Assembly (NCBI GenBank): GCA_028821125.1
Contig: JAPPHD010000193.1
Coordinates: 19,418 to 83,417 of the forward strand
Length of the DNA stretch: 64,000 bases
DNA from: Gammaproteobacteria bacterium
Lineage (GTDB): Bacteria > Pseudomonadota > Gammaproteobacteria > Pseudomonadales > Azotimanducaceae
Reading direction: 5' to 3'
How positions within the stretch are numbered: the first letter of the stretch is position 1; every line of letters begins with the position of its first letter. Shown here piece after piece: positions 49,553 to 61,617 of this stretch. The position numbers and the translations under genes were made by a program. Below the pieces are notes generated by a model. It saw only the letters and a program-made list of their open reading frames with translations. It had not been told where the DNA came from and made no database searches.

Positions 49553-49667
49553 GAGAGTAGGTGTGCGGTACGGGTATCCGGCACCTTTAAAGCACCCCTG
49601 CGCACTCGAACTCCACGAAAACGCGTCCGCTTGGCGTGCCGGATACCCGTACCGCATACCTGCTCTC
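49553..49667. repeat. 115-bp element with 32-bp near-perfect terminal inverted repeats
   Basis: GAGAGTAGGTGTGCGGTACGGGTATCCGGCAC (49553-49584) vs reverse complement of 49636-49667, 30/32 identical. Confidence 0.85.
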
Positions 49668-59422: not shown

Positions 59423-59484
59423 TGGCGGGCACAACTTCACTGAAAAACCGTTCACTTTGTTCGAATCCGCCAAGGGTCCGGTCC

Positions 59485-59667
59485 TAGCCCGCAAATCTCA
59501 CCAACTTCCTGCTGCGGACGCCGATGCACTCGCCCTGCGCGGCCGTGCTCCCTCCAGCCGGTTTGACATACTGTCGAGTATGCCTGCACCGGCTTCCGGT
59601 CCGCGCGGCCACGCAGGACGGCGCCTCGACGCCCTCGCGACGAAAGTTGGTGAGATTTGCGGGCTAG
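59485..59667. repeat. 183-bp palindromic (MITE-like) element with perfect 24-bp terminal inverted repeats ending in CTAG
   Basis: CTAGCCCGCAAATCTCACCAACTT (59485-59508) and AAGTTGGTGAGATTTGCGGGCTAG (59644-59667); internal nested AGCCGGT..CATACT-GTCG-AGTATG..ACCGGCT. Confidence 0.88.
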
Positions 59668-59832: not shown

Positions 59833-61617
59833 ATGCTGAACTCGCTGCTTCGCCTGAAGCCGTTTGTGCGCCCCTACCGGCTGCGACTCGCAAGTGGCAT
59901 CGCAAGCTTCGGCTTCGCACGGGTATTCGAAGCCCTGGTGCCCTTCTTTCTGGCCACCGGTATCGACAAGGTGGCCGGTGGCGACGGTGACGTCACCAAC
60001 CAGGTTTTCGGCATCGTGGCAGCGGTTGCGGGGCGCTATGTCTTCGTCACGTACGCGCGCTATTCCGTGCGCAGCGTCGGCATGCGCGTCGCTTTCGACC
60101 TGCGCGGGGCACTGTACGACGCCCTGCAAAAGCAGGGCTCCGGATTCTTCTCCACGCACACCATCGGCGACATGATGACCCGGGCGGTGGCAGACATCAG
60201 CCTGGTGCAGCGCCTGATCTCCATGGGCAGCATCCTGCTCATCATCCTGGTCTACGCCTCCATCGTCGGGTTCGGCTTCATGCTCTACTACTCGCCGGCC
60301 CTCACGCTGCTGCTGCTGCCGCCCCTGCCTGTCGTCTACTACTACGCCAGGCACGCATCGCGCCAGATGGGCGTGGCGTCAAAGGACATGCAGGACCGCC
60401 TTTCCGATCTCGGCGCGCAGGTGCAGGAGAACCTGTCCGGCATCCGCACCATCCAGGCCATGGCCCAGGAAGACAATGAAATCGCCCGCTTCGCCCGGAC
60501 CAGCCAGGCCTACGCGGACGCCTTCTACCGTCAGGCCCGCATCAATTCCCTGATGATGGCCTGGATGCCGAGCCTGGCCGCGCTGTGCTCCATCACCATC
60601 GTCGGGTTCGGCGGTTACCTCGTGTTGAGCGGCGAGATGTCGCCGGGCGCGCTGGTCGCCTTCCTGATGTACGTGAACATGGTTGTGCAGCCGTTTCGCG
60701 TCGCCGGCTTCATGGTCAACCTGTTTCAGCGGGCGGCGGTGGCCAGCGACCGCCTGTTCGAGGTGCTGAGCCTGGAACCCGAAATCGAGGACCTTCCCGG
60801 GGCGGATGCTCCGGCCCGGGTCCGGGGCGTCCTCGAGACCAGAAACCTGAGCTTCCGCTATGGCGACGGCCTGCCCCTGGCGCTCGACGGCATCAGCCTG
60901 TCCATCGGCCGCGGCGAGTCCATCGCCGTCATGGGCCGGGTGGGCTCCGGCAAGACAACGCTCCTGCGGCAGTTCGTGCGCCTGCTCGACCCCCCGCCGG
61001 GGCAGGTCTTCCTGGATGGGCAGGACATCCGCGACTATCCCCTCGCGCAACTGCGGGCACAGACGGCGCTGGTGCCCCAGGTCACGTTCCTGTTCAGCGA
61101 GACACTGCGCGACAACCTCACCTACGACGACCCGGGCCGCGAGATCGATTCGATCTGGGCCGCGGCGGAAGCCGCCGACCTGAAGGAGACCATCGAAGGA
61201 TTTCCCGACGGCATGGACACCGTGGTCGGCGAACGCGGCGTCACCCTCTCCGGCGGCCAGGTGCAGCGCGCCACCCTGGCACGGGGGCTGATTCGCGACG
61301 CGCCGGTGCTGCTGCTCGACGACTGTTTCTCCAGCGTCGATACCGAAACCGAGGAGCGCATTCTCAAGGACCTGCGCCGGCTGCGGCGGGGCAAGACCAC
61401 CGTGGTCGTTTCCCATCGCGTATCCACGGCCCGGCACTGCGACCGGATCCTGGTGCTCGACGCCGGCCGGATCATCGAGTCCGGCACCCACGAGGAACTG
61501 ATCCGGCAAGACGGGCTGTATGTCGAGTTCGAACGCATCCAGCGGGAAGGCGCCGGCGAGTCGGACTATCGGGGCGCGGCGTCGCCCTTGGCGTTCGCCG
61601 AAAGGGCTGTCGAATGA
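59833..61617 (+). CDS. ABC transporter, fused permease/ATP-binding half-transporter
   Basis: VMGRVGSGKTTLLRQFVRLLDPP; LSGGQVQRATLARGLIRDAPVLLLDDCFSSVDTETE; N-terminal TM domain. Confidence 0.92.
   Translation: MLNSLLRLKPFVRPYRLRLASGIASFGFARVFEALVPFFLATGIDKVAGGDGDVTNQVFGIVAAVAGRYVFVTYARYSVRSVGMRVAFDLRGALYDALQKQGSGFFSTHTIGDMMTRAVADISLVQRLISMGSILLIILVYASIVGFGFMLYYSPALTLLLLPPLPVVYYYARHASRQMGVASKDMQDRLSDLGAQVQENLSGIRTIQAMAQEDNEIARFARTSQAYADAFYRQARINSLMMAWMPSLAALCSITIVGFGGYLVLSGEMSPGALVAFLMYVNMVVQPFRVAGFMVNLFQRAAVASDRLFEVLSLEPEIEDLPGADAPARVRGVLETRNLSFRYGDGLPLALDGISLSIGRGESIAVMGRVGSGKTTLLRQFVRLLDPPPGQVFLDGQDIRDYPLAQLRAQTALVPQVTFLFSETLRDNLTYDDPGREIDSIWAAAEAADLKETIEGFPDGMDTVVGERGVTLSGGQVQRATLARGLIRDAPVLLLDDCFSSVDTETEERILKDLRRLRRGKTTVVVSHRVSTARHCDRILVLDAGRIIESGTHEELIRQDGLYVEFERIQREGAGESDYRGAASPLAFAERAVE

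Follow-up and report, generated by a model that had tools for sequence, protein, structure and literature searches.

The window analysed here, a 64,000-nt stretch of DNA, contains a 184-bp palindrome. To its left lies the gene of a Spondin_N-domain protein (minus strand) and to its right an ABC transporter gene (plus strand, ATG at 59833), which is the divergent intergenic placement described by the original prediction, which had been made from sequence alone. Perfect 24-nt inverted repeats at 59484-59507 and 59644-59667 delimit the palindrome; the earlier length of 183 bp, counted from 59485, had omitted the first C, the true start being 59484. The 24-nt arms are indeed perfect as proposed, but their terminal CTAG is a target-site duplication rather than inverted repeat, leaving a MITE proper of 176 bp (59488-59663) with perfect 20-bp ends (CCCGCAAATCTCACCAACTT). 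The locus comprises the following parts:

59484..59487, no strand: left target-site duplication CTAG; other copies in this genome have CTAA/CTAA, TTAG/TTAG and TTAA/TTAA as direct repeats
59488..59663, plus strand (window orientation): the 176-bp MITE proper, delimited by the target-site duplications of 11 two-ended elements and a paralogous empty site
59488..59507, plus strand: left terminal inverted repeat CCCGCAAATCTCACCAACTT; the same end type bounds IS1380 elements
59511..59525, plus strand: left subterminal motif CTGCGGACGCSGAT, kept in three genera in the alignment
59567..59582, plus strand: central hairpin CATACT-GTCG-AGTATG, retained in relative G068 with a compensatory pair
59627..59643, plus strand: right subterminal motif ACGCCCTCGCKWCG, likewise kept in three genera in the alignment
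59644..59663, minus strand: right terminal inverted repeat, a perfect complement of the left one
59664..59667, no strand: right target-site duplication CTAG, from comparison of the duplications among copies

Within the window, the 24-mer arm occurs at these two sites only, where shuffled sequences lead one to expect 0.00 occurrences even when three mismatches are allowed. The focal fold reaches a minimum free energy of -109.4 kcal/mol, as compared to -67.5 ± 4.2 kcal/mol for dinucleotide shuffles (z = -10; 0 of 200 shuffles as low), bearing out the pairing of the nested-palindromic interior. A chance palindrome is ruled out by this fold energy, by the absence of the arm from shuffles and by the further copies reported below. 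The window also holds a second palindromic repeat (49553-49667; arms of 32 nt around a 51-nt spacer), present in at least 40 genome copies: 40 of 146 candidates were scored, all of them strong matches. It looks like a REPIN-type high-copy family.

Searching the element's own assembly (193 contigs, 5.28 Mb) returned 50 matches. These include seven full copies of the 176-bp form, the focal one among them (C156, C123, C138, C112, C85, C158 and C28), and three full copies of a ~221-bp form with ~45 bp extra internally (C41, C115 and C58); the C178 copy is near-full but degenerate, and many fragments exist besides. A related 242-bp element (C33; L083:387-636), with TTAA on both sides and ends CCCGCATATTTCACCAAG, apparently represents a second family of IS1380-type MITEs. 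When this genome was searched with a degenerate form of the end sequence, 60 ends were recovered, against 0 with a reversed-pattern control. Copies or fragments were found in six other sampled relatives, one being 91% identical; the plasmid collection gave no match to the element, and the focal end had no exact match in viral contigs. A structure confined to this locus, the outcome that the original prediction had named as speaking against a mobile element, is thus not what the genome and its relatives present.

Comparison of the copies defined the target-site duplication as 4 bp with the consensus YTAR (CTAG, CTAA, TTAG, TTAA). Exact direct duplications flank seven of the 11 two-ended elements: CTAG/CTAG, CTAA/CTAA twice, TTAG/TTAG twice, TTAA/TTAA and, counted with them, the TTAA/TTAA of the 242-bp C33 element. 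The remaining four differ by one base between their sides (CTAG/CTTG, CTAA/CTGA, CTAA/TTAA and TTGA/TTAA). Because the non-palindromic pairs CTAA/CTAA and TTAG/TTAG are direct and not inverted, YTAR is the target duplication and the inverted repeat begins at CCCG, which rules out that CTAG lies within the inverted repeat; at the focal site, CTAG resembled a part of the ends because this particular duplication is palindromic. On either side of the C158 copy (L006) stand GGGAAAGAGTTCGTATGCGGGGCTTCCCTTTCGGCGCG-TTAA and TTAA-GCTCGTCCGAAAGCCTTG; but for one base, the same sequence is found in L004 unbroken around a single TTAA, representing an empty site. Since the C158 flank belongs to another high-copy repeat, this empty site is paralogous; for the focal copy, the flanks of the orthologous site in same-genus genomes are too diverged to reveal one. 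The repeat in question (L004:1735-1847, G000:C112) is itself palindromic, with 31-nt arms and at least 40 copies among 152 candidates, and one copy of this type hosts the MITE insertion from which the empty site was derived. The element is therefore short, devoid of a transposase gene, bounded by terminal inverted repeats, associated with target-site duplications and an empty site, and dispersed in multiple copies, and the non-autonomous mobile palindromic element originally proposed can be upheld as a MITE.

The YTAR consensus contains TAA or TAG, so that insertion can restore a stop codon through the duplication, as in two cases (C112, L004; C33, L083) where the neighbouring gene ends on a stop codon supplied by the duplicated target; this can lessen the harm to the host gene. 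The element had been said to contain no ORF, and no recognisable gene was found in it; stop-free frames nevertheless cross it, and at C123 (L002:1487-2296) the frame of a host gene continues at its 3′ end through the MITE copy and is lengthened by ~65 codons. The gene contexts of the copies are mixed, ranging from divergent, convergent and tandem placements to one within a coding frame; the copies other than those just named are intergenic in varying orientations, and no uniform regulatory placement was seen. In a separate arrangement (L078:1969-3176; G000:C158), MITE-like arms lie 1.2 kb apart around a PALP-family (threonine-dehydratase-like) gene, the outer bases being CTAG at one arm and CTGG at the second. 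This unit is possibly a gene-carrying cassette; a search for a second copy found none.

We considered whether the palindrome might be maintained for a function of its hairpin in the cell, as a structured RNA, an attenuator or terminator, or a cruciform, in which case compensated changes would reflect selection for the fold. Besides the fold energy (z = -10), the alignment of 12 copies lends this some support: 95.7% of its cells are paired in a 66-pair structure, nine pairs carry double changes, and the covariation score of 0.123 exceeds those of shuffles (0.063) and slid controls (0.011-0.043), although related copies may exceed such shuffles without structural selection. Moreover, CTGCGGACGCSGAT, ACGCCCTCGCKWCG and the central hairpin persist in three genera (the own genus, G068, and G082/G042), with differing ends. 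However, four of the nine double-changed pairs lie together as a single block in the ends, which changes jointly on both sides (AAATCT, ATCCGT, ATCGGT), and such matched changes would be explained by arm-to-arm template switching (PMC8794818, PMC8604942) or, alternatively, by selection through a transposase needing to bind both ends. The internal changes include column 58 with 176, double-changed in three copies, and, in C58, a replacement of several bases that is matched between the arms (GTAAGC with GCTTGC). The gathering of most double changes in that end block, the mixed gene contexts of the copies, and the lack of an Rfam match at gathering threshold and of promoter or terminator patterns in the focal region make a cellular hairpin function unlikely. 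That the subterminal motifs are kept across three genera as the ends switch in step is unusual. Tentatively, the MITE lineage may keep its body across genera and swap its ends by palindrome template switching, thereby changing its transposase partner with the symmetry retained; we consider this a possibility worth stating rather than the expected outcome.

As to the enzyme that might move the MITE, transposase genes bounded by the same type of end were found in relatives. One IS1380 transposase (L102) lies between CTAG-CCCGGAAAACTCACC and CCCGCTTAGCTCACC-CTAG, a second (L103) has TTAA-CCCGGAAATTTCACCAA on both sides, and a PF13701-family transposase (L107) is bounded by TTAA-CCCGGATATTGCACGA and TTAA. 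L102, L103 and L104 are IS1380 equivalogs (NF033539 above cut-off); for the IS1380 transposases, E values for this model range from 1e-62 to 1e-121, with PF13701 matches as well. A Bryobacterales MAG contains a 1,518-bp element with a broken-frame transposase. One end of this element, CCCGCATCCGTCACCAACTT, adjoins CTAG and matches the second subtype in the present genome (C85, C158) without a difference over 20 bp; the other end reads GGTGAGATACCCGGG-CTAG. Its main ORF matches PF13701 (1.4e-76) and, above cut-off, NF033539 'IS1380 family transposase'. Thus the family, which had gone unrecognised in the original prediction, can be named from ends and duplications, and both match IS1380-family insertion sequences and not a RAYT/REP system.

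Four-bp YTAR duplications do not by themselves discriminate between IS1380 and the IS5 group of the IS5 family, so another DDE family of this kind could in principle have mobilised the MITE. All readable autonomous elements with these ends are, however, of IS1380 type (L077, L102 and L103, and L107 by the Pfam model), making an IS5-type mover very improbable. Even less credible is a REP/REPIN-type palindrome moved by a RAYT (TnpA-REP, an HUH Y1 enzyme): the element is palindromic, intergenic and multicopy, but the precise 4-bp duplications and the empty site are unexpected for Y1 enzymes, the ends match IS1380, and the presence of target-site duplications rules out a REPIN/RAYT origin, for which none are expected.

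The focal element is hence very probably an IS1380-family MITE, and an IS1380-family enzyme is strongly supported as its putative mobiliser by the shared ends. We infer the acting transposase, since an intact IS1380 element with precisely such ends did not turn up in the own assembly, which yielded only fragments or relics and partial PF13701 matches. At least 18 contig ends of this assembly break within an element of this end type: 11 break 50-55 nt inside CTAGCCCGAAAATCTCACCAA (also written CTAGCCCGAAAATCTCACCAAAAAATTGG; nine of them read at single-base level) and seven break 50-55 nt inside CTAGCCCGCATCGCTCACCAACTC (also written CTAGCCCGCATCGCTCACCAACTCGATGG). Such breaks look like those of a multi-copy element that has collapsed and is missing from the bin. 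In relative G065 (L122), a PF13701 N-terminus adjoins an end closely resembling CTAGCCCGAAAATCTCACCAA. Judged from these sequences, the element at the contig breaks is probably the genome's own autonomous IS1380 partner, its interior lying outside the assembly; set against the focal ends, this candidate shows 3-4 differences in 20 bases at the right end and one in 17 at the left end. Mobilisation would then proceed in trans, with a cellular IS1380 DDE transposase binding the ends, excising or copying the element and inserting it by a 4-bp staggered joining at a YTAR target. Fold-back ancestry, together with recurrent correction of one arm by the other, would probably account for the long internal palindrome, and not a host function.

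A search of the literature on IS1380 and MITEs, partial in its coverage, returned no obvious earlier description, and we make no claim to a first one; what is added is a well-bounded IS1380-associated MITE family with its ends, duplications and empty site. With IS1380-family insertion sequences (NF033539/PF13701), as checked in the elements of the relatives, it shares ends of the form CCCG(C/G)-N5-TCACC and short target duplications, from which it departs in lacking a transposase gene and in its size (176 bp versus about 1.5-1.75 kb). The duplication is 4 bp here, whereas the entry for IS1247 gives 5 bp (PMC3281130). Prokaryotic MITEs are likewise short, non-autonomous, multicopy and mostly intergenic, with terminal inverted repeats and target duplications (PMC10969869, the main text of which does not mention IS1380), but the present element is wholly one nested palindrome. 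Rickettsia palindromic elements are also palindromes (about 150 bp) that a host gene can read in frame, reminiscent in this respect of C123; in-frame fusion here is a single case at a 3′ gene end. Finally, template switching at quasipalindromes (PMC8794818, PMC8604942) supplies a mutational reason for the matched block changes in the two arms, which for this element we put forward as a proposal; with its palindromic body and matched end switches, the element makes it possible to test how the two ends of fold-back elements stay alike.
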